Origin: Novosphingobium kunmingense
GTDB lineage: Bacteria; Pseudomonadota; Alphaproteobacteria; Sphingomonadales; Sphingomonadaceae
DNA length: 64,000 bases
Direction of reading: 5' to 3'
Assembly: GCF_002813245.1 (NCBI RefSeq)
Contig: NZ_PHUF01000004.1
Span: forward strand, 312,001 to 376,000
A program made the position numbers and the translations under genes. Below are positions 4,174-21,295 of this stretch, piece by piece; position 1 is the first letter of the stretch, and each line of letters begins with the position of its first letter. Under the pieces are notes generated by a model. The model had not been told where the DNA came from. It saw only the letters and a program-made list of their open reading frames with translations, and did not search any database.

Positions 4174-5475
4174 ATGGAGAGGAGCGGAGGCTCGGCAGCG
4201 GCAGATACGATGGCGCGCCCGCGCAGGGGTGCCCGCTTCGAGCGCAAGCGCGAGGCGATCCTCGATGCCGCCGCGGACCTGATCAACAGCCGCGGCGCGC
4301 GCGGCGCGACATTGCAGCACGTTGCCGCAGCAGTCGGGCTCAATACGACCAGCGTCACCTACTATTTCCGGCGCAAGGAAATGCTGGCGGTCGAGGTGTT
4401 CGAACGCTCGCTGCAGCGGATCCTCGCAATGGTCGAGGACGCGGCAAGAGAGGCCAGCCCGCGCGAGCGGGTGCACCGCTTCGTCAAGTTCCATGTAGAC
4501 CTGCGCGCCGAGGTCATTGCCGGAACAGCGCGGCCTTTGGTCGACCTGTCGGACATCCGCACTCTCGACGAGGACCTGCAACGCCCGCTCAACGCGCAAT
4601 ACCTCGCAATCTTCCGCAAGCTGCGCGATTTCTGGGGGCCGTTCGCCAGCGCCGAGCAGCGCGAGCTGTGCACCGCGCGCGTGCACATGCTGCTCGAGGT
4701 GGTGTTCTGGCTGCCGGCCTGGCTCGAACAGTTCGCGATCAACGATTTCGGCCGGGTCTGCCGCCGCATCTGCACCATCCTCGACGAAGGGCTCGCCCCC
4801 AAGCAGGCCGGCCGGCACGCACGATTGTTTTCCGACGATGCCCTGCGCTCGGCGATGCCCGGTCTCGACATCGCAGAAGAGAGCTTCCTGCGCGTCGCAA
4901 CGCGGCTGATCAACGAAAGCGGTTATCGCGGTGCTTCGGTCGTGCGCATCGTCGGCGAGCTCAACGTTACCAAGGGCAGCTTCTACCACCACCTCGACGC
5001 CAAGGACGACCTTGTGCTCGAATGCTTCCGGCAAAGCTACAAGCGCGTCGCCATCGCCCAGTGGCTGGCCCATGAGGCGGGCGGCAGCGAATGGGAGCGG
5101 CTGAGCGGCGCAATCGCGACGCTGATCGACATCCAGTTCCGCGCCGACTGGCCCCTTACCCGCACCACTGCGTTGCAATCGTTGCCCCTCAACCTGCGCG
5201 TCGAAGTTGTCAGCCGGTCGAACCGCATCGCGCTGCGCTTCATGGGCACGCTGGTCGACGGGCTGCGTGACGGCTCGATCAATCCGGTCGATCCGGTGAT
5301 CGCCAGCCAGCTGATCATCTCGACGCTCAATTCAGCGTACGACCTCGCCGGCTGGGCGGCGCGGATGCCGCGCGAACGGGCCATCGCCTACTACGCCTCG
5401 ACCCTGGCCGACGGTCTGTTCGATGACAGCGTGCTTGACTGGGCCGGCAGCTTCATCCAGCCCGCCGGCAGTTGA
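4174..5475 (+). CDS. Tandem double-domain TetR/AcrR-type regulator
   Basis: A 433-aa DNA-binding repressor-type protein, twice the length of an ordinary TetR. Two complete TetR units follow one another. The first helix-turn-helix is at residues ~20-68 (ATLQHVAAAVGLNTTSVTYYF) with its helical ligand domain to ~225. The second helix-turn-helix is at ~232-280 (ASVVRIVGELNVTKGSFYHHL), again followed by a ligand-type domain. The two halves are clearly different in sequence, so this is an old fusion and not a recent duplication or assembly error. I chose the start at 4174 because AGGA sits 7 nt upstream; an ATG at 4210 (MARPRRGARF) is an alternative. It is divergent from the pirin gene. The effector and operator are unknown. 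Confidence 0.85.
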   Translation: MERSGGSAAADTMARPRRGARFERKREAILDAAADLINSRGARGATLQHVAAAVGLNTTSVTYYFRRKEMLAVEVFERSLQRILAMVEDAAREASPRERVHRFVKFHVDLRAEVIAGTARPLVDLSDIRTLDEDLQRPLNAQYLAIFRKLRDFWGPFASAEQRELCTARVHMLLEVVFWLPAWLEQFAINDFGRVCRRICTILDEGLAPKQAGRHARLFSDDALRSAMPGLDIAEESFLRVATRLINESGYRGASVVRIVGELNVTKGSFYHHLDAKDDLVLECFRQSYKRVAIAQWLAHEAGGSEWERLSGAIATLIDIQFRADWPLTRTTALQSLPLNLRVEVVSRSNRIALRFMGTLVDGLRDGSINPVDPVIASQLIISTLNSAYDLAGWAARMPRERAIAYYASTLADGLFDDSVLDWAGSFIQPAGS

Positions 5476-5555
5476 GCGTTGCCTTCGCGGGGAACCCGAC
5501 GCGGCCCTGCGGCGTTGGCAATCCTGCGGGCGGGACTTCGGGCAAGGAATGGACG

Positions 5556-7049
5556 ATGACAGTCGGTGAACTGATGGCCGAAAGCGGCGTGGCCTTCGGA
5601 ACCAGCGGTGCGCGCGGCACCGTGGTGGCGATGACCGACCGGGTATGTCACGGCTATACCGCCGGTTTCCTGCGCTACCTGGCGACCCTGGGCGAGTTCG
5701 CACCGGGCACCCAGGTCGCCCTGGCGGGAGACCTGCGTCCCAGCACGCCGCGCATCCTTGCCGCCTGCGCGCAGGCCGTGCGCGACCTCGGCGGAGAGCC
5801 GGTCTACTGCGGGCTGGTCCCGACGCCGACCCTGGCGCTGTTCGCCTTCGCCCAGGGAATTCCCTCGCTGATGGTCACCGGCAGCCACATTCCGGCCGAC
5901 CGCAACGGCATCAAGTTCTACCGTCCGCACGGCGAAGTGCTGAAAGAGGACGAGGCTGGCATGATGACGCAGCAGGTCGCGGTGGACGGTCGCAGCTTCG
6001 ACCCGCTGGGAAGCCTGATCGGCTCAGCCCCGCTTCCGACCCCGATCGATGTGGTGCCGCCCTATGTCGCGCGGTATCGCGACGCGTTCGGCAGCGCCAC
6101 CCTCGCCGGCAAGCGCATCGGTATCTACCAGCATTCCGCCGTCGGCCGCGACGTCCTTGTAGCCATCGTCGAGGCCCTTGGCGGCGAAGCGGTTCCGCTC
6201 GGCCGTTCGGACGAGTTCGTGCCCGTCGATACCGAAGCGGTCCGGCCCGCGGACATCGAACTGGCCCGGCAATGGGCAGAAGAACAAGGCTTCGACGCCA
6301 TCGTGTCGACCGACGGCGATTCCGACCGCCCGCTGCTCGCCGACGAGGCCGGCGAATGGCTGCGCGGCGATGTGCTTGGCGTGCTTTGCGCGCGCCAGCT
6401 TGGCGCCGACCGGGTGGTGACGCCTGTCTCCAGCAACACCGTGCTCGAGGAAACCGGCGCCTTTGCCGTCACCGCGCGGACCCGAATCGGGTCGCCTTAT
6501 GTCATCGCGGAAATGAATTCGCAGATCGCCGCCGGGGGCAAGCGCGTCTGCGGGTACGAAGCCAATGGCGGCTTCCTGCTTGGAAGCGACCTCGCGAATG
6601 GCGTCGGCACGCTCTCCGCGCTGCCCACCCGCGATGCCGTGCTGCCGATCCTGGCGACGCTGGTTGCCGCCGGACCGCAGCCGCTTTCGGCTCTGGTCGA
6701 TGCCCTTCCGCCCCGCGTGACCTACAGCAACCGCATTGCCGACTTTCCGACCGAATCCAGCAAGGCGATCCTCGCCCGGCTGGAGAACGGTACCGAGGGC
6801 GAACAGTTGGGAAGGATCGAGCACGCCTTCGGCGCAGTCGCCGGAAAGCCCGTTCGCATCGACCGCACCGATGGCCTGCGCATCACGTTCGGCAGCGGAG
6901 AGGTGATCCATCTGCGCCCATCGGGCAATGCGCCCGAACTGCGTTGCTACAGCGAGGCGACCAGCGCGGAGCGCGCTCGCACGATCAACGACGCGGCGCT
7001 AGACGTGGTAAGGACGATTCTGGCCAAGGACGTGGCCACGCCCGCCTGA
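5556..7049 (+). CDS. Phosphomannomutase (alpha-D-phosphohexomutase superfamily)
   Basis: A 497-aa enzyme predicted to interconvert mannose 6-phosphate and mannose 1-phosphate in the cytoplasm, feeding GDP-mannose synthesis. Superfamily landmarks are in order: N-terminal FGTSGARG, phosphoserine loop TGSHIPADRNGIKFY (Ser near residue 110), metal-binding loop DGDSDRPL, sugar-binding GYEANGGF, and C-terminal phosphate-binding loop RPSGNAPELR. The phosphoserine loop differs from the common TASHNP form but keeps the Ser. The ATG at 5556 has AAGGA about 7 nt upstream. The gene runs convergently into the manA/manC operon with no bases between the two stop codons, so it supplies that pathway from the opposite strand. 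A phosphoglucomutase or dual specificity cannot be excluded from sequence alone. Confidence 0.87.
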   Translation: MTVGELMAESGVAFGTSGARGTVVAMTDRVCHGYTAGFLRYLATLGEFAPGTQVALAGDLRPSTPRILAACAQAVRDLGGEPVYCGLVPTPTLALFAFAQGIPSLMVTGSHIPADRNGIKFYRPHGEVLKEDEAGMMTQQVAVDGRSFDPLGSLIGSAPLPTPIDVVPPYVARYRDAFGSATLAGKRIGIYQHSAVGRDVLVAIVEALGGEAVPLGRSDEFVPVDTEAVRPADIELARQWAEEQGFDAIVSTDGDSDRPLLADEAGEWLRGDVLGVLCARQLGADRVVTPVSSNTVLEETGAFAVTARTRIGSPYVIAEMNSQIAAGGKRVCGYEANGGFLLGSDLANGVGTLSALPTRDAVLPILATLVAAGPQPLSALVDALPPRVTYSNRIADFPTESSKAILARLENGTEGEQLGRIEHAFGAVAGKPVRIDRTDGLRITFGSGEVIHLRPSGNAPELRCYSEATSAERARTINDAALDVVRTILAKDVATPA

Positions 7050-7856
7050 TCAGGAGATAGGCTGGGCGATCAAGCCGCGCGCGCCGCGCGGAATGGCAAG
7101 TCGCCCCACCGACACCGCCAGTTCGCAGGCCCCGGCGGAAACTGGCGCACCGTCCACCGCAACTGCAAGGTCGATCGGAACCACCAACAGGCCGCCGCTA
7201 CCGAACAGGGCCTGGGCCTCATCTGACAAGGGACCGTCATAGCGGACCAAGCGGAACAGCGGCCCGTCGACCAGCGTGATCTCGCCGCGATCGGAAACAT
7301 GCCGCCGGCGCGGATCGTCGTAGGGCTCGCCGCGGGCCACGGCGATGCCGTCATCGAGGTGCAATTCGCGCGGGCGGCCGTAATCGTAGAGCCGATAGGT
7401 TATGTCGCTGTTCTGCTGGACCTCGATCAGGCTCACTCCCGCACCGATCGCATGGACCGTGTTGGCGGGAATGTAGAAGAAATCGCCCGCCTTGACCGGA
7501 AACCAGGTCATCAGGCCTTCGATCGCTCCGTCGCAGGCGGCGCGGCGCATGTGCCGCGCATCGACGGCCCGATCGAAGCCGATGCCCAGCATCGCGCCTT
7601 CATCGGCGGCGATCACCAGCCAGCATTCCTCCTTGCCCTGCTTGCCCAGCCCGGCCTGCAGCGTCTGCGCATCGCTGGGGTGGACCTGGACCGACAGCTT
7701 TTCGCTGGTGAAGATGTACTTTATCAAAAGCTGGCTTAGCGCGGCAGGCGGTTCGAACCAGACCTCGCCGATGCGCTGTCCCGCAGGCGTTTCGAACGGG
7801 GGCGGCAGGCGATCCTTGCCCCACGGCTTCTCGACCATCCGGGTCGGCAGGGTCAC
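7050..7856 (-). CDS. manA: Class I mannose-6-phosphate isomerase
   Basis: A 268-aa cupin enzyme of the short (Bacillus-like) type, interconverting fructose 6-phosphate and mannose 6-phosphate. Metal-ligand regions are visible: LSVQVHPSD (Gln and His), KEECWLVI (Glu) and ANTVHAIG (His), followed by the family's RLYDYGR active-site arginine motif. The probable start is the GTG at 7856, which overlaps the manC stop as GTGA; an ATG six codons further on (MVEKPWG) is the alternative. The tight overlap means the gene is translated together with manC as the last gene of the four-gene leftward operon. Together with ManC and the facing phosphomannomutase it gives a complete fructose 6-phosphate to GDP-mannose route. 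Confidence 0.9.
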   Translation of the reverse strand: MTLPTRMVEKPWGKDRLPPPFETPAGQRIGEVWFEPPAALSQLLIKYIFTSEKLSVQVHPSDAQTLQAGLGKQGKEECWLVIAADEGAMLGIGFDRAVDARHMRRAACDGAIEGLMTWFPVKAGDFFYIPANTVHAIGAGVSLIEVQQNSDITYRLYDYGRPRELHLDDGIAVARGEPYDDPRRRHVSDRGEITLVDGPLFRLVRYDGPLSDEAQALFGSGGLLVVPIDLAVAVDGAPVSAGACELAVSVGRLAIPRGARGLIAQPIS

Positions 7857-8908
7857 TGGTTGGCCGCCCTGAACAGCTTGCCGACCTTCTGGGCGCCGTC
7901 CGCCGTGGTGACGAGGATGTCGTCGCCGTCGACCACGACGATAACGTCGCTGAGGCCGATGACCGACACGTGCGGCCCGTCGCTGTCGACCAGCACGTTG
8001 CGGCAATCGACCAGTTCGACATCGCCGCGGCTGGCATTGCCGTCCTCGTCGCGGTCGAGCGCAGCGTGAAGAGCTTGCCAGTTGCCGATGTCGGACCAAG
8101 CCATGTCGGCCGGAACCATTGCCGCGCGGTCGGTGTTCTCCATCACCGCATAGTCGACCGACTCGCTCTCGATCCGGGCGAATGCCTCGGCATCGGGATG
8201 AAACTGCGCACCCTCTTCGCGCCCCTTTGCGACGGCCTCGTGTGCTGCGGCCAGGATCGCCGGCCGGTGGCGGCCCAGCTCGTCAAGAAAGGTCGCGACC
8301 TTGAAGGCGAAGATGCCGCCGTTCCAGGCATAGCCGCCGTGGGCCAGGAACTGGCGCGCCCGCTCAAGATCAGGCTTTTCGACAAAGCGCGCGACGCGAA
8401 ACCCCTGATCGCCGATCGGCGCCCCGCGTTCGAGATAGCCGAAGCCAGTTTCGGGTGCCGTCGCCTCAATCCCGAAGGACACCAGCCACCCATCATCCGC
8501 GAGGCTCGCCGCCTTGGCCGCCGAGGCGCAAAACGCTTCGGCGTTGCCGATGTGGTGATCGCTCGGGCAGACCAGCATGATCGCTTCGCCGGGCAGGCGC
8601 AGTGCCGCAAGCGCGATCGCCGCAGCGGTGTTGCGAGCCGATGGTTCGACGATGATCTGCGCGCCGAAGTCCTGGCCTACCTGGTCCATGACATGTTCGA
8701 GATGCGCCGTTCCCGTGACGACGACTGGCCCGGCAAACTGGCCGGGATCGCCGCATCGGCCCAGCGTCGCTTCGAACAGGGTGCTGTCGCCGACCAGCGG
8801 CAGAAACGGCTTGGGCTTGGTCGCACGGCTGCGCGGCCACAGGCGCGTGCCGCTCCCGCCGCACAGGATGACCGGATGGATCTTGGCACTGTCGGAAGGC
8901 ATCGTCAT
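7853..8908 (-). CDS. manC: Mannose-1-phosphate guanylyltransferase (GDP-mannose pyrophosphorylase)
   Basis: A 351-aa nucleotidyltransferase that joins GTP and mannose 1-phosphate into GDP-mannose. The nucleotide-binding signature ILCGGSGTRLWPRSR is at residues ~14-28, followed by KPKPFLPL, EPSARNTAAAIALAAL, the PSDHHI metal site, GYLERG, FVEKPD and WNGGIFAF, all in the standard order. It is the single-domain form without the C-terminal isomerase domain of bifunctional enzymes; the isomerase is the separate downstream gene. The start is ATG 8908, or 8902 two codons later; no strong ribosome-binding site separates them. Only 12 bases separate it from the GH130 stop, and it shares the GTGA overlap with manA, so all four leftward genes are probably one transcript. 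Confidence 0.93.
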   Translation of the reverse strand: MTMPSDSAKIHPVILCGGSGTRLWPRSRATKPKPFLPLVGDSTLFEATLGRCGDPGQFAGPVVVTGTAHLEHVMDQVGQDFGAQIIVEPSARNTAAAIALAALRLPGEAIMLVCPSDHHIGNAEAFCASAAKAASLADDGWLVSFGIEATAPETGFGYLERGAPIGDQGFRVARFVEKPDLERARQFLAHGGYAWNGGIFAFKVATFLDELGRHRPAILAAAHEAVAKGREEGAQFHPDAEAFARIESESVDYAVMENTDRAAMVPADMAWSDIGNWQALHAALDRDEDGNASRGDVELVDCRNVLVDSDGPHVSVIGLSDVIVVVDGDDILVTTADGAQKVGKLFRAANQ

Positions 8909-8920
8909 CTTTCGCTGGTA

Positions 8921-10231
8921 TCAGTCCATCATCGCCAGGAGATCGGACACGGTGGTCGAGGCGAAGCCCACCGCGCTGTCCGAAATGCCGTAGGGGATGA
9001 GCAGGGCTTCGCCTACCTTCATTGCCCCGCAGGTGTACACGACGTTGGGCACATAACCCGAACGGTCGGCATCCTCGGCGGTCAGCACCGGTTCGCGCGT
9101 GCGGGCCAGGACCTTCGAAGGGTCGTCACGGTCGAGCAGCGCGCAGCCCAGCGCATACTTGCGCATGGCCCCGACCCCGTGGGTCAGCATCAGCCAGCCG
9201 GCGTGGGTCTCGATAGGGGCGCCGCAGTTGCCGATCTGGATGAACTCCCAAGGATACTTCGGCTCCATCAGGAGCACGCCATCGTCATCCCAGGTGTCGA
9301 TGCTGTCCGAGCGGAGCAGGAACAGGTTCTTACCGTCCTGCCGCCCGATCATCGCATAGCGCCCGTCGATGGGCCGGTCGAACAGGGCCATGCCCTTGTT
9401 GCGGCCCGCCTTGCCGCGGATCGGCTCGAGCTCGAAGGCACGGAAGTCACGGGTGCGGAGCAGTTCGGACCGGATCGAGCTGCCCGAATAGGCGGTGTAG
9501 GTGCCGATCCATTCGTAGTCGTCCTCGCCGTGCCGGAAACGGACCAAGCGCAGATCCTCCAGACCGCCGCGCTGCTGTTCCGTGATCGGGAAGATCACGC
9601 AGTTTGACAGTGTGCTTTCGGCGTTGCGGTGGACCATGACGCCTTCGTCGGCATCGGTCAGGGTGGTGTCGTCGATCACCGCCGCCGTGGCGAAATGGCT
9701 TTGCGGCCAGAGCTGGAACGACCCGTCGGCTTCGGCGATCCCCTCACGAAAGGCGATCGAGCTGATGTGCCCCTCGCCCACCGCGCGCAGCGACATGACG
9801 AACCGAGACGCCCCCTCGCACATGCCCGACTGGTCGGGATGGGGGACGATCGACGGGTTCATCAGGGCGGCTGCCGCATAGGTGTATTCGTGGCAGAAAT
9901 AGGCCCCGATCAGGCGCTGCCGGGCGGGCGAGAACCCGCAGTCGTGCAGGCCATGATGGTGCTCGACCTCGCGGTAGCGTTCCTCGAAGACCTGTTCGGT
10001 CTGCCAGTGGCGCTCGGCGAAATCCTGGATGACGCGATCATATTCGGCTTCGACTTGTTCCTCGCTCAGCGCGGCGACGTCGTCGACGAGCCGCTGCGCA
10101 CGGTCGACCGGCGCCGATGCGGATTGCCAGCCGAGGTGAAAAGGCCGGAGAACGACGCGCGAGGGATCGGCATGCAATCGCGTATCATGGATGAGCAAGC
10201 GTTGCGGCTGGCCCGTGGTAGTCTTCAGCAA
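8921..10231 (-). CDS. Glycoside hydrolase family 130 protein (mannoside phosphorylase/hydrolase-like)
   Basis: A five-bladed propeller enzyme of GH130, a family of beta-mannoside phosphorylases and some hydrolases. Recognisable segments are HADPSRVVLRPF near the N-terminus, MNPSIVPHPD, FVMSLRAVGEGH, GGLEDLRLVRF (the acidic strand of the active site), KGMALFDRPI, GNCGAPIETHAGWLMLTHGVG and GYVPNVVYTCG. I cannot decide from sequence whether it phosphorolyses or hydrolyses, or which linkage it uses. The only in-frame ATG, at 10324, would overlap the upstream gene by 140 bases. I prefer the TTG at 10231, which follows an AGGGGA box (436 aa, 47-base overlap). Its place between a GT4 enzyme and the GDP-mannose genes implies it acts on a mannose-containing product. 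Confidence 0.83.
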   Translation of the reverse strand: MLKTTTGQPQRLLIHDTRLHADPSRVVLRPFHLGWQSASAPVDRAQRLVDDVAALSEEQVEAEYDRVIQDFAERHWQTEQVFEERYREVEHHHGLHDCGFSPARQRLIGAYFCHEYTYAAAALMNPSIVPHPDQSGMCEGASRFVMSLRAVGEGHISSIAFREGIAEADGSFQLWPQSHFATAAVIDDTTLTDADEGVMVHRNAESTLSNCVIFPITEQQRGGLEDLRLVRFRHGEDDYEWIGTYTAYSGSSIRSELLRTRDFRAFELEPIRGKAGRNKGMALFDRPIDGRYAMIGRQDGKNLFLLRSDSIDTWDDDGVLLMEPKYPWEFIQIGNCGAPIETHAGWLMLTHGVGAMRKYALGCALLDRDDPSKVLARTREPVLTAEDADRSGYVPNVVYTCGAMKVGEALLIPYGISDSAVGFASTTVSDLLAMMD

Positions 10232-12545
10232 GCGCGTCCCCTGCCCGTTGAGTTGTGCGGCGCTCTCCGAGCATCGGCTGCAGGGCAGCGTAACCCAGTT
10301 GGAAAGCGAGTATCGATTCGGCACCGCAATTCGCGTTGGCCCCGCGTGGGGTCACCCCGTCGCGGCACCGACCGCTGGCGATATCGCCCAATATAGCACC
10401 GCGATCGTTCGCGCCAAGGAACCAGCGGTAAGCCGTCACGGCGTGATCGACCCAGCGCTGCGATGGCGCGGCGGCGTGGGCGGCAGCAGCCGCCTCGATT
10501 GCGGCCTGGGCTTCAAGCGGCTGCTGGTCGAACGGCATCTGGCCATGGTGCTGGCCGAAGCTTTCCGAACCGACCGGCCGGAACAGGCCATTGGCGGCAA
10601 TCTGCCGGTCGGCAATCCAGTCGAGCGTGGCAAGGCCCAGCCCGATCCAGTCGCCGCGACCGCAGACCTGGCCCGATTCGATCAGCGCCTGAGGCAGACG
10701 AGGGTTGTCATAGCCGAGTACGGCCTCGAACCAAGCCCAATCAGGCCGGCGCGAAGCGGCCAGCAGCCGTTCAAGCAGCAAGGCCCCGCGACGGATCAGC
10801 GCTTCGGCCTGGGGGTGGTGCCCGTCGGCACGCAGGACTGCGCAGGCGCCAAGCATGCCGAATGCCATCGCGCGCGGCGATTCGACGCCGTCGAGCGCGC
10901 GCAATGTCTGGTCGAACAGGTGCCGCGCCCAATCGCGCAGATCGGGAAACGGCGAATGTTCGGCCGTATCGCCAAGCGCCCACAACCCGCGGCCATTGGA
11001 ATCGTCCGAACCCTCGTCCTCGCACCAGGTGCGGTCGAAGCGCATGAAATTGCGGAAATGGTTGCGATCCGGGTTCCAGGCGTACTGGATGAAGCTGGCG
11101 AAGGTCGAACTCCACGATAGTCGATCAATCGGATTGAGCGCCGGCGCATGGTTCATCAGGATCAGCGCGCGGGCGTTGTCGTCAAGGCAGTAGCCATGGC
11201 GACGGTCAGGCACGATACCGATCGCGTGCTGCAGCATCCCCGTGCCATCGCACATCGCCAGGACGCCATGCATGCCAGGCGTGGCGGTTAGCGGAATCTC
11301 GGCGAGCGGCTGCGCTGCGGCAGCCTGGACCAGCGCGGCGGTAGAATCGGCGAAGCGCGGCCAGATGGTCTTGCGGCCTTCGCCATAAGCGCGGCGGCGC
11401 GTCGCCATAAGGTATTCACGATCGTCGAGCAGTGCGTTGACCGCCTCGGCAATCGCGCCGCTCGAATGGGGTTCGACGATCACGCCGACCCCGTCGGCCA
11501 GCAGTTCGCGCGCATGGACATATGGAGTGGAGACTACCGCTTTGCCCAGAGCCACGGCATAGCTGAGCGTCCCCGAAGTGGCCTGCTGCAGGTTCGGATA
11601 GGGCGTGAGGTAGACATCGCAGGCCTCGAGTTGATCAAGCAGCTCGGGCGTTTCGAGGAAGCGGTTATCCCACTCGATATGCTGCGCGACGCCCAGCCGT
11701 TCGGCCAGCGCCACAAGCCGTTCGCGGTAGACCTCGCCTTGCTGCGCGACAAGGTTGGGATGCGTTGCACCGACGATCCGATAGACCGTCTCGGGATGGC
11801 ACGCCACGATGGCAGGCAAGGCTTCGATCGCGTGTTCCAGCCCCTTGCCCGGACCGAGCAGCCCGAAGGTCATCAGGACATTGCGACCGGCAAGTCCCAT
11901 TGCCTCCTTGAACGCCGCCTCGCGGCCGAACGGACGATCCGGCGCGCCGTGGGGAATGACTGCAACGCGGTCGGCAGGGGCGTGGTAGAGATCGACCAGC
12001 AGATCGCGGCCGTGCGCCGACATGACCATGATCCGCGAGGCGCGCGAAATCAGATGTTCGACGATGCGGCGCTGGTTGGCGCTCGGCTCGCTCAACACGG
12101 TGTGGAATGTCACGACCAGCGGCGCCGCAATCCGGTCGATCAGTTCGCAGACCATTTCTCCGTCTGGACCGCCGAAAATGCCGAACTCGTGCTGCAGCCA
12201 GACTGCATCGGGGGCCGCTTCGTTGATCTGGCGCGCCGTGGCGCGGTAGCTTTCGATCTCCGACTGGTCGACGCGGACCACCCCACCGGCGTACTGCGCG
12301 CCGCTATCGGCGTCATCGAGAGCATAAACGGTCGAAGCGATCTCGCCGTGGTATTCAGCCAATTGCTCGACCACATCGGCGGTGAAGGTGGCTATTCCGC
12401 ATTTTCGCGGAACGTATGTGCCGATCAGGGCGAGCGAGAGGCGCCGCGGGACAGGACGACCGACCGGACGCGAAAAGATCTGCACGACGGGGCTGTCATC
12501 GACGCGAGGGTAGGAGTGTCGCGGTTCCGCGTACAGTTGATCCAT
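10185..12545 (-). CDS. Two-domain glycosyltransferase: GT4 domain plus C-terminal helical-toroid-like domain
   Basis: A 786-aa protein. Residues ~25-400 form a GT4/GT-B glycosyltransferase: LALIGTYVPRKCGIATFTADVV at the nucleotide-sugar end, WLQHEFGIFGG, FHTVLSEP, MSAHGRDLL, FGLLGPGKGLEHAI and the C-lobe ATSGTLSYAVALGKAVVSTPY. Residues ~410-780 form a second, mainly helical domain (YCLDDNARALIL, FRNFMRFDR, GRGLWALGDT, FGQHHGQMPFDQQPLEA) that resembles an alpha/alpha-toroid glycoside-processing fold; I do not recognise its activity. It is the first gene of the operon with GH130, manC and manA, so GDP-mannose is the likely donor (inference). The start is ATG 12545; a TTG at 12566 could extend it. 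It is divergent from the CoA-transferase gene across 235 bp in which I see no distinct element. Confidence 0.83.
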   Translation of the reverse strand: MDQLYAEPRHSYPRVDDSPVVQIFSRPVGRPVPRRLSLALIGTYVPRKCGIATFTADVVEQLAEYHGEIASTVYALDDADSGAQYAGGVVRVDQSEIESYRATARQINEAAPDAVWLQHEFGIFGGPDGEMVCELIDRIAAPLVVTFHTVLSEPSANQRRIVEHLISRASRIMVMSAHGRDLLVDLYHAPADRVAVIPHGAPDRPFGREAAFKEAMGLAGRNVLMTFGLLGPGKGLEHAIEALPAIVACHPETVYRIVGATHPNLVAQQGEVYRERLVALAERLGVAQHIEWDNRFLETPELLDQLEACDVYLTPYPNLQQATSGTLSYAVALGKAVVSTPYVHARELLADGVGVIVEPHSSGAIAEAVNALLDDREYLMATRRRAYGEGRKTIWPRFADSTAALVQAAAAQPLAEIPLTATPGMHGVLAMCDGTGMLQHAIGIVPDRRHGYCLDDNARALILMNHAPALNPIDRLSWSSTFASFIQYAWNPDRNHFRNFMRFDRTWCEDEGSDDSNGRGLWALGDTAEHSPFPDLRDWARHLFDQTLRALDGVESPRAMAFGMLGACAVLRADGHHPQAEALIRRGALLLERLLAASRRPDWAWFEAVLGYDNPRLPQALIESGQVCGRGDWIGLGLATLDWIADRQIAANGLFRPVGSESFGQHHGQMPFDQQPLEAQAAIEAAAAAHAAAPSQRWVDHAVTAYRWFLGANDRGAILGDIASGRCRDGVTPRGANANCGAESILAFQLGYAALQPMLGERRTTQRAGDALAEDYHGPAATLAHP

Positions 12546-14600: not shown

Positions 14601-17600
14601 TCAGGGGGTCACGCCGGCGCTCTGCAGGTGCAGGTACCAGTCGTTGGCAGAGGCGTCGGCAAATCCGGCCGCGTGGTCGACGTAGAGCCCGGCGATGCTG
14701 TCCAGCCCCAGCAGGGTCAGCGACCCGCCAGTCGTGAACGCCAGCCGCGCGTCGATCTGCCCATCGTGGTTGTAATCGCCAAAGGTCGCGGTGCGCAAAG
14801 CCGCACCGTCGAGCAGGACGACACGATCCTCGGCAAGGTCGAAATCGGTCACCACGTCGTCGCCATAGGACTTGCCGAAGGCAAAGCTGTCGTGTCCCTC
14901 GCCGCCGGTCAGCAAGTCGTTGCCGGTATCGCCCTGCAGCCAGTCGTGGCCGTCGAGCCCGAACAGCCGATCGTCGCCGCGGCCGCCACGGATCTGATCC
15001 TCCCCGGCCGTGCCGACGAGCCAGTCGATGCCGTTGCCACCGGCCACCTCAAGCCCGTCCGCAATCCCCGTCACCGTGACGCTGACCGAAGCCGTGCTGG
15101 TCAGCCCGCCACTGTCGCGCACGGTATAGGTGAAGGTGTCGATGGCCGTCGCACCGGGCGCCAGCGCATCGAAGGCGTCGCCATCGGCGACATAGCGCAG
15201 GGTCTGGCTGGCGGCATCGAAGACCAGGCTGCCGTGGGTGCCGGTGGTGTCGATCGCGCTGATTTCCAGCACATCGCCCAGATCGGGATCGAAGTCGTTG
15301 CCCTGCAGCAGGCTCCACAGGTTCGCGCTGGTCGCGTCCTCGTTGGCGGCAATGGCATCGCCCACGGCAGTCGGAGCCTCGTTGACGTCGCCGACGGTTA
15401 TGACGATGTCCTGCGTGCTGTTGAGCCCGGCTGAATCGGTAACCTTGACCGTCACCGTGAAACTGCCGGTCGCCTCGTGGTCGAAGGCTGCGGTGGTGGT
15501 CACCGCGCCGGTCGCCGCATCGACGACAAATCGGCCGCCGGCGTCGTCGACAAGCGTGTAGGTCAGCACGTCGCCCGTCGTGTCCGTCGCCGAAAGGGTG
15601 CCGACAAGAGTGCCCCCCGGCTGATTTTCGGCCACCACGTCGTTCGACAGCACGACGTCGTGCGGGGTGATGCCCATCAAGAGCAGCGCAAGCTGCGGAT
15701 CATGGTCGGTCGGGCGCCCTTCGGCGCCGAACTGCGCGTTGAGATGAACCGCGTCATACCGCGTGCCCTCGAACAGGCCGCCAGTAACCAGCATGTTGTC
15801 GATCAGCTGGTGATTGCCGTCGAACACGTAGGAATAGCGTTCCGCCGCGTCGAGCAGCATCGCCAGGTTGGTGAATACCCCGCCGTCGGTAAGCTGCGTC
15901 TGGGCCCGTTCGAAGTAGAACCCGTTCCAGTCGCCCAGCACCATGTACTGCCCCGAAGGATCGGCGGCGAGCCGATCGTTCACATAGGCGCCGACGGCTG
16001 CAGCCTGGGCGGTGCGCGCGGCATCGCCCGCATCGGCCGGAGGCTGAGTCGCACCCCAGAGCGGATCGCTGCCCCCGCGGGAGGTGAAGTGGACGTTGAT
16101 CGTCGTCACCGTCTGGCCGTTGAATTCCCAGGTTGCCGCCAGCGGCTTGCGGCTGCCGTTGAAGGCCGGGTCGGTAACCAGCGCAAGGCTGCCTTCGAGC
16201 AGGGCCACGCGGTCGGGCCGATAGAGATAACCGTTGCGGATGTTGCCGCCGGGTTCGCCCCCGGTGGAATTGGCGACGGCCGGGGCGATTTCGACGTAGA
16301 CGTAGGTGATGCCGCTCTGGGCGTAGATCGCATCGATCAAGCCCTGCGCGTTGCTCGCCCCGCTGAGGCTCGTGCCGCTGCCGGCGCCGTCCGCGTCCTG
16401 CATTTCCTGAACGGCGATGATGTCGGGCGCCATGAGGTTATAGACGATGTCGTTGCTCAGGATCTCGTATTTGTGGTCCGACGGATCGAGATTTTCGAGA
16501 TTGTAGGTCGCCACCGACATGTAGTTGGCATCGCCGCGCAGCACGCTGACCTCTTCCGTCAGGGTGACGTCGCTGGTCACCGTGACGGCCTCGGTCGCCA
16601 GCAGCTCGTAGTGCTCGAAGCTGTAACCGATGACGCCGGTCACGCTGGCAAGCTGATCGCCGATGGTGTGGTTCGGGACATAGCCGATCAGGGCGCCGAA
16701 GCGATCGTCGAGCTGGAGTTTCTCGGGATTGAAGTCCCCGGCCCCGATCGTGATCCCGCCCCGGTCGTTGACCCCCGTAGAGCCGACGCCGAGCGAGGCG
16801 ACGATGTCGGTTTCGCCGTACTGGTTGGTGTTGGAGACGACCAGCGGGCTATCTACGGTGACCCGCATACCTTCCAGCGATTCCCAGAAGTCAATCCCGT
16901 CGCTGGCAGGGTCGAAGCTGGTCAGCCCGTCGTTGTCGATGGTCTGGCTCGGTGGAAGGAGCCCACCCGCGCCGATCAACATGGCCGCAGGCAGCGCGTT
17001 GCCGGTGCTGGTCACGGTGATATTGGCCGGCGTGGCGTCAATCTCGGTCAACGAAAGCCCCGCGCCCGAAGCGAATTCCGCCACCGTGCCCTTCACGCTG
17101 ACGGCATCGCCGACGGCCACACCCGGGGCGATGCCGGTGTAGACAAAGATCGCGTCCGAGGTGGCGGTGTTGCCGTCGCCGCCGGGGTCCTGCAGGTAGA
17201 AGCCGCCGGCATCGACCGCGGTTACGATGCCCGTGGTGATGACCGGCTGGCCGGCATAGGCCGAGAGGTGGCCCGCCCCCTGGATTGCCATGATGGTCAG
17301 CGCGATCGGATCGTCGTTGACAATGGTCCCGGTGGCGCCGCCATCGGCGATCACGGCGTTGCCGGTCACGTTCGACAGGGTGACGGTCAACGTTTCGTTG
17401 ACCTCGCCCAGCGTGTCCCCACGCACGGGGATGGTAATCGTCTTGGTGAACTCGTTCGCGGCGAAGGAGACGGTACCGGCCAGCACCGCGCCGATCCCAA
17501 GGTCCGCGCCGTCGGCCGTGCCCAGCGCGGCCTGCCAGTCGACGCTGGCCTGGGTAGCGTAACCGCCGGCGCGCGACACGGTAAAGGTCAGCAGCGCCTC

Positions 17601-19133
17601 GCCGGCGTTGCCTTCGCTCACGCGCGCGTCGGCGATGCGAATCTGGCCAAGTGCCGTGCCCGACAGGAAGGTCTGGCCGCCGTTGACCGCCGCGGCGGTA
17701 TCGGCAACGTTCGCCGTCCACGTGAAGTCCGCATAGCTCGATCCCGTGCCGGTCAACTGGAGCGTGAAGCCGACCGCAGCGTTTTCCTGTGCAATGCCGA
17801 TGTCGGTGCTGGTCATGCTCGCGGCCACGCCGCTGGTTGCCGTCATCGCTCCTTCGTAGCTGAGGAACTGGACGACGCGGCCAATGCTGTCGACCAGCGC
17901 GATCCCGTCGGGCGCACCGTTCTGCAAGGCGGGTGCCAGCACCTTGACGAACCCGAAGCCGCTGCCTGCATCGGCCAGCGTGCCCGACAGGTTGAGCGTG
18001 CCGTAAACGCCGCCACCGTTGCCGTTGTAGAGCACCAGCTTCCAGCCGGTCAGATCGGTGCCGGCAAGGCCGGCAAGTTCGATGAACTCGTTCGCGTCGG
18101 TTCCGACCGGATCGTAGTTGATCTCGTTGACGAAGACATTGGCCACCGGCGGCAGGTCGTCGGCGACGATCGTGCCGGCGCCGGACCCGTCGAGGATCGT
18201 GGCGCCGCCGGTCGGATTGGACAAGACCACCGCGAAAGTCTCGCTCGCTTCGACGAATGTGTCGCCCGCGATCTGGACAGTGATCGTCGCGCTGGTCTGC
18301 CCTGCGTCGAAATGGACCGTCCCGGTCAGCGGTCCGGCAAAGTCGGCCGCGCTGGTCGTCCCGTTCTGGACGGTCCAGGTGGCATCGACCGCGCCGTCGC
18401 TGCCGCCGCTTCGGGTCACGGTGAAGGTGATCGCGGCGGCTCCGGCATTGCCCTCGACCAGCGAGGCGTCATTGATGCTGAGCGCGCCGGGCTGGCTCTG
18501 GACCAGGGCCGTGCTGGTCACCGCGATATCGTCGATCCCGATCCATTCGTCGTTGCCTACGGCGTTGGTCGTGATGATGCGAACTTCGACCTGCGCCTGG
18601 TTGTTCGCGCTGCTTGGCAGGGTGACCGTGACTGCGGTCGTCAGTGTCGCCAGGCTGGGCCCGGTGCTGGCATCGGCGATATAGCCCGCCGGAAGGTCGA
18701 TCCACGCACCTGTGCTGCCGATGCGGTATTGCACGGCAATCGGCTGGACGGCGTTGTCGGTGGATGCGTCAAGATCGCGTGCGTTGAAGCTTAGGGTGAC
18801 GCCTTGCCGACCGGTCGCGTTGAGATAGATCGCCAGGTATGGTGCGCTGGCGGGACCGGATCCCTGCAGTGCGACGGTGGCGTTTGCGATCTGGAATTCC
18901 GCGACACCGCCATTGGTGATGCCGGGACTGAGCTGGTTGGCAATGACATCGATCGTGCCGGCCGACCCGGTGATCGTTCGCGGATCGGTACCCGTCGCCG
19001 AGGTCAGTCCATCGCCCAGAAAGCCGACGATGCTGGGCACGAGGTCCCAGTTGTCGTTGGTCGTGATCAGGCCGGTGTTGCTCCAGTCCTGCAGCAGGTC
19101 GCCGCTGGCCAACGAGAAATAAGTGTTCGACAT
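14601..19133 (-). CDS. Large secreted multidomain endonuclease/exonuclease/phosphatase-family nuclease with RTX C-terminus
   Basis: A 1510-aa modular extracellular protein resembling ExeM/NucH-type nucleases. Approximate modules: N-terminal beta-sandwich 1-210; Calx-beta 215-323 (SLVEGNAGAAAITFTV); lamin-tail domain 331-494 (FVNEINYDPVGTDANEFIEL); second Calx-beta 498-611; an OB-fold-like linker to ~865; EEP nuclease ~870-1150 with catalytic landmarks SVATYNLENL, AVQEMQDAD, LGDWNGF and TDHDPQL; cadherin-like repeat 1164-1254; another beta-domain; and an RTX-like Ca2+-binding tail at 1368-1421 (GGRGDDRLFG, GDTGNDLLTGG). There is no N-terminal signal peptide. With the RTX tail this suggests type I secretion, but no transporter genes are near. 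AAGGGG precedes the ATG by about 9 nt. The likely role is degradation of extracellular DNA for phosphate or biofilm turnover. Confidence 0.9.
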   Translation of the reverse strand: MSNTYFSLASGDLLQDWSNTGLITTNDNWDLVPSIVGFLGDGLTSATGTDPRTITGSAGTIDVIANQLSPGITNGGVAEFQIANATVALQGSGPASAPYLAIYLNATGRQGVTLSFNARDLDASTDNAVQPIAVQYRIGSTGAWIDLPAGYIADASTGPSLATLTTAVTVTLPSSANNQAQVEVRIITTNAVGNDEWIGIDDIAVTSTALVQSQPGALSINDASLVEGNAGAAAITFTVTRSGGSDGAVDATWTVQNGTTSAADFAGPLTGTVHFDAGQTSATITVQIAGDTFVEASETFAVVLSNPTGGATILDGSGAGTIVADDLPPVANVFVNEINYDPVGTDANEFIELAGLAGTDLTGWKLVLYNGNGGGVYGTLNLSGTLADAGSGFGFVKVLAPALQNGAPDGIALVDSIGRVVQFLSYEGAMTATSGVAASMTSTDIGIAQENAAVGFTLQLTGTGSSYADFTWTANVADTAAAVNGGQTFLSGTALGQIRIADARVSEGNAGEALLTFTVSRAGGYATQASVDWQAALGTADGADLGIGAVLAGTVSFAANEFTKTITIPVRGDTLGEVNETLTVTLSNVTGNAVIADGGATGTIVNDDPIALTIMAIQGAGHLSAYAGQPVITTGIVTAVDAGGFYLQDPGGDGNTATSDAIFVYTGIAPGVAVGDAVSVKGTVAEFASGAGLSLTEIDATPANITVTSTGNALPAAMLIGAGGLLPPSQTIDNDGLTSFDPASDGIDFWESLEGMRVTVDSPLVVSNTNQYGETDIVASLGVGSTGVNDRGGITIGAGDFNPEKLQLDDRFGALIGYVPNHTIGDQLASVTGVIGYSFEHYELLATEAVTVTSDVTLTEEVSVLRGDANYMSVATYNLENLDPSDHKYEILSNDIVYNLMAPDIIAVQEMQDADGAGSGTSLSGASNAQGLIDAIYAQSGITYVYVEIAPAVANSTGGEPGGNIRNGYLYRPDRVALLEGSLALVTDPAFNGSRKPLAATWEFNGQTVTTINVHFTSRGGSDPLWGATQPPADAGDAARTAQAAAVGAYVNDRLAADPSGQYMVLGDWNGFYFERAQTQLTDGGVFTNLAMLLDAAERYSYVFDGNHQLIDNMLVTGGLFEGTRYDAVHLNAQFGAEGRPTDHDPQLALLLMGITPHDVVLSNDVVAENQPGGTLVGTLSATDTTGDVLTYTLVDDAGGRFVVDAATGAVTTTAAFDHEATGSFTVTVKVTDSAGLNSTQDIVITVGDVNEAPTAVGDAIAANEDATSANLWSLLQGNDFDPDLGDVLEISAIDTTGTHGSLVFDAASQTLRYVADGDAFDALAPGATAIDTFTYTVRDSGGLTSTASVSVTVTGIADGLEVAGGNGIDWLVGTAGEDQIRGGRGDDRLFGLDGHDWLQGDTGNDLLTGGEGHDSFAFGKSYGDDVVTDFDLAEDRVVLLDGAALRTATFGDYNHDGQIDARLAFTTGGSLTLLGLDSIAGLYVDHAAGFADASANDWYLHLQSAGVTP

Positions 19134-19791: not shown

Positions 19792-19969
19792 GCCTTGTCT
19801 CCCCGATCTCGCCAGCCGCCCTACCAGCCGCGTTCAGCGGGTGCCAGCCCGACCGACTTATGGTAACGTTCACACGATTGCAGGGGAAGGCATACGAATG
19901 TGACTGGACTTGGCCGCACTGCGCGTCATCTATGCCGCCACAACACGATAAACGATGGGAGAAATCGCA

Positions 19970-21295
19970 ATGGCCGCGCCAATAACCGGAACGAGGGGGC
20001 TGCAAACCCCGCCCGGCAAGAGCACGTCGGGCACGACCACGGTCCTGCTGCTGGTCTTCGCCGTGTTCTTCATCCTTGGCGGGGTGACGAACATCAATGA
20101 CCTCTTGGTCGGCAAGTTCCGGCCGATGTTCCAGTTGTCGCACGCCGAAGCCAACCTGGTGCAGATGGCATTCTTCATCGCTTACGCCGCCTTCTCCATT
20201 CCCGCCGGCATCATCATGAGCCGCCTCGGCTATATCCGCACCTTCGTGCTGGGCTTCGTCATGGTGGCCGCCGCTTCGCTGCTGTTCATCCCGGCTTCCG
20301 CCAACGCCTCGTTCGGAGGGTTCCTGGCCGCGTTGTTCTTCATCGGCGCGGGGATCACCGTGCTGCAGGTGGCAATGAACCCGGTCATCACGACGCTTGG
20401 CCCGACAGAGACGTCGCACAGCCGGCTGACCTTCGCCCAGGCGTTCAATTCGATCGGCGTGACGCTGATGGTCTATGGCGGGGCGTCGGTCCTGCTCGGC
20501 GATGCCAAGCCGATCGATGCAGCCTCGGCCACGGCCGAACAGCTGCAGGCTTACCGTGTCGAGCAGGGCGCCTCGATCGGCCACGCCTACATGTGGCTGG
20601 CCGTCGCCATGCTCGCGATCGCCGCGCTGTTCTGGGCGTTCCGATCCGCGCTCGACGGCGCCAAGGCCGAGGAGGCCAAGGTCGCCGGCACGCTCGACCT
20701 TCTTCTCACCAACCGCCGCGTCCAGTGGGGCGCGCTGTGCATCTTCATGTACGTCGGCGCCGAAGTCGCGATCGGATCGAACATGATCGCCTATCTCGGC
20801 GAACAGAGCGTCATGGGCCTGGGTCTCGAAGAGGCGGGCAAGCTGGTCGCGTTCTATTGGGGCGGGGCGATGATCGGCCGACTGGTCGGCGGCTTCGTGC
20901 TGCGGATGTTCCGCCCCGGCCGGGTTCTGACCACCTATGCCGCCGCCGCGATCGGCCTGCTGACGCTGTCAGCGCTGTCGATGGGCACGCTTTCAGGCTG
21001 GTCGCTGATCCTCGTGGGCTTCTGCAATTCGCTGATGTTCCCGACCATCTTCAGCCTCGGCACCGAAGGCCTTGGCGAACGCGCGCCGCAGGGTTCGGGG
21101 ATCCTTTGCACGGCCATCGTCGGCGGGGCTCTGGTCCCCTTCCTGTTCGGCACCGTGGCCGACCTGTCGCACAACATCCGCATGGCGCTGATCGTGCCGG
21201 CGGTGTGCTATGCGATCATCGCCGCTTTCGGACTGTGGGCGGTGCGCCACCCCAGCCGCGTCGAGCAGGCGGCGGAGGCCCCCACCTTCCAGTAA
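19970..21295 (+). CDS. Sugar MFS transporter (FucP/GluP-like)
   Basis: A 441-aa inner-membrane protein with about 12 hydrophobic segments and the FucP/GluP family character: a VFAVFFILGGVTNINDLLVGKF first helix, QMAFFIAYAAFSIPAGIIMSRLGY, and the HSRLTFAQAFNSIGVT loop where family members carry substrate-binding residues. Relatives are proton-coupled importers of fucose, glucose, galactose or N-acetylglucosamine. The start is ATG 19970 with GGGAGA 8 nt upstream; an ATG at 19955 overlaps that ribosome-binding site and is unlikely. There is no sugar kinase or glycosidase next to it, so the substrate is uncertain. It faces yqgE convergently. Confidence 0.9.
   Translation: MAAPITGTRGLQTPPGKSTSGTTTVLLLVFAVFFILGGVTNINDLLVGKFRPMFQLSHAEANLVQMAFFIAYAAFSIPAGIIMSRLGYIRTFVLGFVMVAAASLLFIPASANASFGGFLAALFFIGAGITVLQVAMNPVITTLGPTETSHSRLTFAQAFNSIGVTLMVYGGASVLLGDAKPIDAASATAEQLQAYRVEQGASIGHAYMWLAVAMLAIAALFWAFRSALDGAKAEEAKVAGTLDLLLTNRRVQWGALCIFMYVGAEVAIGSNMIAYLGEQSVMGLGLEEAGKLVAFYWGGAMIGRLVGGFVLRMFRPGRVLTTYAAAAIGLLTLSALSMGTLSGWSLILVGFCNSLMFPTIFSLGTEGLGERAPQGSGILCTAIVGGALVPFLFGTVADLSHNIRMALIVPAVCYAIIAAFGLWAVRHPSRVEQAAEAPTFQ

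Follow-up and report, generated by a model that had tools for sequence, protein, structure and literature searches.

We analysed a cassette of mannose-related genes in Novosphingobium kunmingense, an alphaproteobacterium with a 3.5 Mb genome, within a window of 64,000 nucleotides (the whole stretch under analysis: assembly GCF_002813245.1, contig NZ_PHUF01000004.1, positions 312,001 to 376,000 of the forward strand). Its core is a pair of adjacent genes, one encoding GT4C, which joins a GT4-like glycosyltransferase half to a second, all-helical half, and the other GH130L, a long-form, phosphorylase-type member of family GH130. We found that this pair recurs, almost always adjacent, in at least three phyla (Pseudomonadota, Fusobacteriota and Deinococcota), and that mannose-metabolism genes have joined it repeatedly, in many different orders. 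As an architecture, a cytoplasmic module that makes and recycles a mannoside is well supported; that the locus works as such a cassette is, in our judgement, on balance probable. The evidence lies in the gene content and layout, the conserved pairing, the family membership of the proteins and the conservation of the GH130L active site. The window genes were read from a listing of open reading frames (ORFs) and from Pfam and NCBIfam scans, and the features are given in window coordinates:

10185..12545, minus strand: GT4C, GT4 half plus predicted (alpha/alpha)6 half; start ATG 12545, TTG 12566 possible; ORF of 793 amino acids (aa), GT4 half at residues ~40-420 (PF00534, 1e-15)
10248..11288, minus strand: predicted (alpha/alpha)6 domain at the C terminus of GT4C; ORF residues 427-773, without a Pfam family
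11559..11585, minus strand: degenerate EX7E motif of GT4C; Q328 ... Y336 for Glu ... Glu
8921..10198, minus strand: GH130L, mannoside phosphorylase-type (PF04041, 1.4e-27); start TTG 10198
9179..9556, minus strand: span of the GH130L active-site residues D215, K268, R286 and H340, numbered from TTG 10198
7853..8908, minus strand: ManC, mannose-1-phosphate guanylyltransferase (TIGR01479, 3e-102), without a C-terminal isomerase domain
7050..7856, minus strand: ManA, class I mannose-6-phosphate isomerase (TIGR00218, 1e-16); GTG start
5472..7049, plus strand: phosphomannomutase-like protein (PMM; PF02878 to PF00408), convergent with ManA

The four minus-strand genes are tightly packed or overlapping: the GH130L start lies 14 nt inside GT4C, 12 nt separate the GH130L stop from the ManC start, ManA begins at a GTG (7856) that overlaps the ManC stop, and the convergent PMM gene ends one base before ManA. 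The ORF listing and the domain scans agree with the five genes as placed by the first-pass annotation of this DNA, with refined starts. For GH130L the most likely start, judged by comparison with relatives, is TTG 10198, because homology begins there in many of them and a longer reading meets stop codons in others; a 467-aa reading from GTG 10324 was rejected on these grounds. No Wzx, Wzy, Wza, ABC transporter or other export gene was detected among the neighbouring genes scanned, which bears out the view that this is not a standard polysaccharide export locus. The closest named relative locus belongs to a Novosphingobium metagenome-assembled genome (MAG), whose GH130 is 90% identical.

The GT4C-GH130L pair recurs across phyla

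Firstly, we scanned species genomes and kept 80 loci of the Novosphingobium/Erythrobacteraceae type. GT4C lies directly upstream of GH130L in all of them (80/80), whereas ManC is a partner in 32/80. Secondly, we surveyed 398 Pseudomonadota genomes. Full-length GH130L is present in 17, each with an adjacent GT4C (17/17), and GT4C is present in 19, the two genomes without full-length GH130L having it at or near contig ends; the hypergeometric probability of this co-occurrence is ~5e-28. Thirdly, we collected 27 plasmid records containing the C-terminal domain of GT4C, and in 24 of them a GH130 gene lies within 2 kb. These include records from Rhizobium, Neorhizobium, Sinorhizobium, Devosia, Ilyobacter (Fusobacteriota) and Deinococcus, and it is the plasmid records that provide the cross-phylum evidence. 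The first-pass annotation had made its idea depend on the two proteins occurring together outside this genome, as they do in all three samples. The distances of GT4C and GH130L are also correlated (Mantel r 0.94 over 75 representatives), shared species history explaining part of this value. The two core genes appear to move between bacteria as a mobile unit.

The pair has apparently not been studied before: a literature search on a GH130 plus GT4 cassette as a store or stress module returned as relevant only a Thermoanaerobacter paper, discussed below, and a review of glycoside phosphorylases. Two further observations concern the sampled loci. Acidobacteria/Sulfopaludibacter MAG contigs (L068 and L099) carry a sphingomonad-like GT4C-GH130L pair (67-70% identical), and for that reason these bins may be contaminated. 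In 29/80 loci, from Novosphingobium and Croceicoccus, GT4C is immediately preceded by a TonB-like gene in the same orientation (for example L082, 4712-5476); the window lacks this arrangement.

Predicted folds and active sites of GT4C and GH130L

In its predicted model GT4C is a two-domain protein, with a GT-B half followed by an all-helical C-terminal half of ~340 residues. The GT-B half matches PF00534 and PF13439, and the best fold matches of the model include MshA (Z 35.9), PimA (Z 35.6) and sucrose-phosphate synthase. When GT4C is aligned with MshA, both glutamates of the EX7E motif fall on Q328 and Y336, which are unchanged in 22 relatives; in the nine GT4C proteins that we compared, including those of Ilyobacter and Deinococcus, the first position is always Gln and the second Tyr or Phe. 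Both glutamates are kept in the canonical GT4b proteins encoded next to some of the pairs. GT4C is therefore GT4-like by fold and sequence and not a canonical GT4, and with EX7E lost and a further domain present it is no ordinary transferase.

The C-terminal half matches no family in a Pfam search, and a search of the PDB with the single sequence gave chance matches only. A profile built from 30 sequences retrieved one PDB protein, Yersinia YPO2471 (7tem; hmmsearch E 7e-14), and the GT4C model matches this structure with Z 34.4 over 335 residues (root-mean-square deviation 3.1); the fold search used the whole GT4C model and its listed rows are mostly GT4 enzymes, 7tem being the neighbour of the C-terminal domain. 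YPO2471, a putative exported protein for which a literature search found no paper, is the only solved relative found; it stands alone, whereas GT4C joins the domain to a GT4 half. We read the all-helical model as a probable (alpha/alpha)6 barrel. The conserved motifs of the window domain are DDNAR, WxWFE, FDQQP, ND, CxDG and GAES, and copies from Fusobacteriota and Deinococcota, as well as a stand-alone Croceicoccus copy, retain DDNAR, WxW(F/C)E, Q-P-EA, DG and GAES. Conservation of this kind is what an active site would show, perhaps a glycosidase-type pocket. Throughout the 398-genome sample the domain is always part of GT4C. The stand-alone copy is encoded on a Croceicoccus marinus plasmid (L206, 7974-9017), with its motifs conserved, 20 kb from GH130L.

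GH130L scores 97 bits against PF04041 (cut-off 26). Its nearest hidden Markov models are those of beta-1,2-mannobiose phosphorylases, well under their equivalog cut-offs (NF052550: 138 bits against a cut-off of 450), so that by these scores it belongs to the family of beta-1,2-mannobiose phosphorylases but is not an NF052550 equivalog. The nearest proteins by sequence are Teth514_1789, Teth514_1788 and Lin0857, with GH130 chains matched at 1e-29 to 1e-37. The model is a five-bladed propeller (Z 31 to 5b0p, 30 to 7fip and 9fj8), whose fold neighbours are Lin0857, Uhgb_MS and the Teth514 enzymes (Z 30-31) and, further off, the Leishmania GT108 enzymes (Z 20); no GT108 chain is among the sequence matches within the E-values searched.

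The catalytic Asp of GH130 enzymes lies in a GxED motif, and GH130 hydrolases lack the three basic residues of the phosphate site, having a Glu pair instead (PMC4599007, which also gives the residue roles). In GH130L, D215 (the Asp of GLED), K268, R286 and H340 are invariant across 31 relatives. D215 is aligned with the GLED/GVED of the Teth514 enzymes and K268 with their NKD Lys, while R286 and H340 pair with the Arg and His of Teth514_1788/1789 in the sequence alignment. K268 may be the equivalent of BT3780 K199, the Lys of beta-1,2 specificity, judged by alignment rather than superposition. Since GH130L keeps the basic phosphate-site residues that the hydrolases lack, phosphorolysis is a better prediction than hydrolysis, and the fold and the conserved Asp and basic residues agree with the phosphorylase-type assignment of the first-pass annotation. 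A helical N-terminal extension of ~100 aa distinguishes this long form. Solitary GH130L paralogues without GT4C also occur (loci L183, L182, L185, L187 and L212), several of them plasmid-borne, with genes for copper resistance and for alcohol/aldehyde dehydrogenases next to them.

Mannose genes, chaperones and other neighbours

The window order, GT4C-GH130-ManC-ManA (with PMM), is one of many; GT4C-GH130-ManA is also seen, and Rhizobiales and other alphaproteobacteria have ManA-GT4C-GH130. Sphingobium and Sphingomonas plasmids carry ManC-ManA-GT4C-GH130-PMM, that is, the five functions of the window rearranged, and these proteins are only 45% (ManC, in Sphingobium amiense), 43% (ManA) and 58% (PMM, on Sphingobium plasmids) identical to those of the window. 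ManC-GT4C-GH130 also occurs, an order-level relative (L191) has ManC-GH130-GT4C-PMI-ROK (PMI, mannose-6-phosphate isomerase), and in GT4C-GH130-AGE the AGE protein is a weak match to D-mannose isomerase. In a distant family of the same phylum (f43), GT4b is fused to a PMI domain and followed by a short GH130 (GH130S), GH130L and GT4C; Ilyobacter has the same four-gene order with a GT4b without the PMI domain, and Deinococcus has GT4C-GT4b-short GH130. No transporter or exporter gene lies inside the compact cassette versions that we read, including that of Ilyobacter. Canonical GT4b is repeatedly paired with a short GH130 (L195, L202, L157 and L201), possibly a second make-and-recycle pair.

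The ManC gene at the locus is the only one in the genome. ManC matches were obtained in 55/61 relatives searched, including those without GH130L; ManC is a housekeeping gene in the genus, and we rejected it as a marker of the module. Since the genome also encodes gmd, the ManC of the locus probably serves more than the cassette, presumably feeding gmd as well. The mannose loop described by the first-pass annotation is supported as a dedicated one, though its ManC is probably shared.

Several plasmid copies have chaperone genes as neighbours: groES-groEL in Sphingobium amiense, S. yanoikuyae and Sphingomonas bisphenolicum, and dnaK-grpE with hsp20 or universal stress genes beside Sphingomonas/Sphingobium copies. 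In two further alphaproteobacterial genomes and on a Rhizobium plasmid, groEL lies within 9 kb of the cassette. A rough estimate of the chance of such adjacency in 5/20 contexts is 3e-6, which would place it well above chance; for this figure the copy numbers of the chaperone genes were assumed, and the contexts on plasmids are not fully independent of one another. Among the 80 fetched Novosphingobium/Erythrobacteraceae-type loci, none (0/80) has chaperone genes nearby.

Other genes of the window were noted in passing. A 433-aa protein with two tandem TetR N-terminal domains (4174-5475, plus strand) is encoded directly upstream of PMM and possibly regulates that side of the locus. At 19955-21295 (plus strand), 7 kb from the cassette, lies a major facilitator superfamily (MFS) transporter gene whose product scores above the gluP cut-off (glucose/galactose) and is also close to fucP in type; the closest relative (L022) likewise has such a gene near its cassette. 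An ORF of 1510 aa (14601-19133, minus strand) combines Calx-beta, ExeM/NucH extracellular nuclease, cadherin-like and RTX repeat regions, and its product is probably a secreted nuclease.

A proposed mannoside cycle and its competing explanations

In the proposed cycle, ManA would interconvert fructose 6-phosphate and mannose 6-phosphate, PMM would interconvert the latter and mannose 1-phosphate, and ManC would convert mannose 1-phosphate into GDP-mannose, which we infer as the donor of GT4C purely from gene context. With this donor GT4C would assemble or prime a product inside the cell, either a mannose-containing oligomer or a small mannoside, and its (alpha/alpha)6 half probably trims or processes that product. 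GH130L would phosphorolyse, or reversibly extend, beta-mannosyl linkages, probably beta-1,2, returning mannose 1-phosphate without ATP, and leftover free mannose could be processed by the isomerase or kinase genes of some cassette versions. Inferred too are the acceptor and the product, the linkage, the direction and the role in the cell (a carbon and energy buffer or a stress solute).

The chemistry raises an objection that the first-pass annotation, with its GT4 making what GH130 breaks, had overlooked. Known GT4 enzymes are retaining and yield alpha-mannosides, and GH130 enzymes act on beta-mannosides, so that GT4C and GH130L may not share a bond. GT4C may be atypical, as its altered motif makes possible; it may prime or cap, with GH130L lengthening and shortening the beta-linked chains like GT108 in Leishmania; or the two proteins may act on different bonds. 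Besides this mismatch and the loss of EX7E, other points count against a make-and-recycle cassette. The searched literature contains no mannose polymer from these bacteria and no assayed cassette enzyme; in 46 tallied loci no further mannose genes are seen near GT4C-GH130; the L183 paralogue of GH130L, from another genome, lies beside a TonB receptor, LacI and GH65, a setting that suits scavenging; and glgA, which this genome shares with most GH130L-bearing relatives searched, speaks against a simple reserve role. We tried and rejected a replacement of glycogen, as the two systems show no complementarity. The architecture supports the cytoplasmic module of the first-pass annotation; a reserve in place of glycogen is not indicated.

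Some of these observations would fit salvage, in which GH130L feeds mannose 1-phosphate from outside or cell-wall beta-mannosides into GDP-mannose for glycoconjugates, GT4C being one user. This pathway was proposed for the closest described case, Thermoanaerobacter sp. X514, where Teth514_1786-1789 encode two GH130 beta-1,2-mannoside phosphorylases, ManC and a GT4; the cluster also contains a GH5 and five genes for ABC transporters, and its authors interpreted it as a route by which mannan is salvaged into GDP-mannose (PMC4264767). Both systems bring GH130, ManC and GT4 together, GH130L best matches the phosphorylases of that cluster, and the f43 and Ilyobacter versions likewise combine two GH130s with GT4 genes; the housekeeping ManC, gmd and the L183 paralogue also agree with salvage. 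However, the compact cassettes that we read have no transporters and no GH5, and the constant partner of GH130L is GT4C and not ManC. We consider salvage rather improbable. It is possible that the product of GT4C is a small compatible solute or protectant carrying mannose, which GH130L turns over, and that the cassette belongs to mobile stress-tolerance islands; this would explain the copies within 9 kb of chaperone or universal stress genes. The repeated chaperone neighbourhood points a little towards a stress solute over a reserve, but no such genes lie near any of the 80 genome loci, and the chance estimate carries the assumptions stated above.

GH130L could also itself synthesise a beta-mannan from mannose 1-phosphate, with GT4C priming it, or trimming it through the C-terminal domain, rather than acting as the polymerase. 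This would resolve the alpha/beta mismatch; among the close fold relatives is Uhgb_MS (Z 31), whose structure was deposited under the name of a mannoside synthase, the Leishmania mannosyltransferase/phosphorylases are more distant ones (Z 20), and PMM in the Sphingobium cassette could supply mannose 1-phosphate directly. Cellular phosphate levels normally favour phosphorolysis, GT108 proteins are missing from the sequence matches, and no product is known; we hold this explanation only tentatively. That housekeeping mannose genes and a glycosyltransferase unrelated to them simply lie together by chance is very improbable: ManC and ManA are common, and ManC occurs without GH130L in many relatives, but the near-invariant pairing across phyla contradicts chance for the pair, and diverged mannose genes, such as the S. 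amiense ManC, have been recruited repeatedly. We therefore retain the make-and-recycle cassette as our reading. The observation of the first-pass annotation was right and understated, and its interpretation is plausible and partly supported; it missed the two-domain nature of GT4C, the pairing across phyla, the varied orders of mannose genes and the chaperone context.

Two known cycles resemble the proposed one. Leishmania makes mannogen, an intracellular beta-1,2-mannan, and recycles it via GDP-mannose and mannose 1-phosphate (PMC8950772). The present cassette shares with it the make-and-recycle idea and the five-bladed propeller fold; unlike that system, it has no GT108 sequence match, has as its constant element a distinct protein, of GT4 type and with an additional domain, and is known from genes alone. 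Like the bacterial glycogen cycle (GlgA/GlgP), it couples a nucleotide-sugar transferase to a phosphorylase that returns a sugar 1-phosphate, but it is mannose-based, with a phosphorylase of an unrelated family, and glgA lies separately in the genome. A previously unrecognised, mobile bacterial 'mannogen' pathway in Pseudomonadota, Fusobacteriota and Deinococcota, serving as a stress-linked store of carbon and protectant in the form of a beta-mannan or mannoside, is a speculative extension that we rate as doubtful. If it holds, bacteria would possess, alongside the glycogen cycle, another of its kind that runs on mannose and whose core genes travel between phyla as a unit; the EX7E-less GT4 and the unnamed (alpha/alpha)6 family, including the Yersinia structure, would gain a substrate hypothesis, and GH130 enzymes would have a physiological role beyond glycan scavenging.

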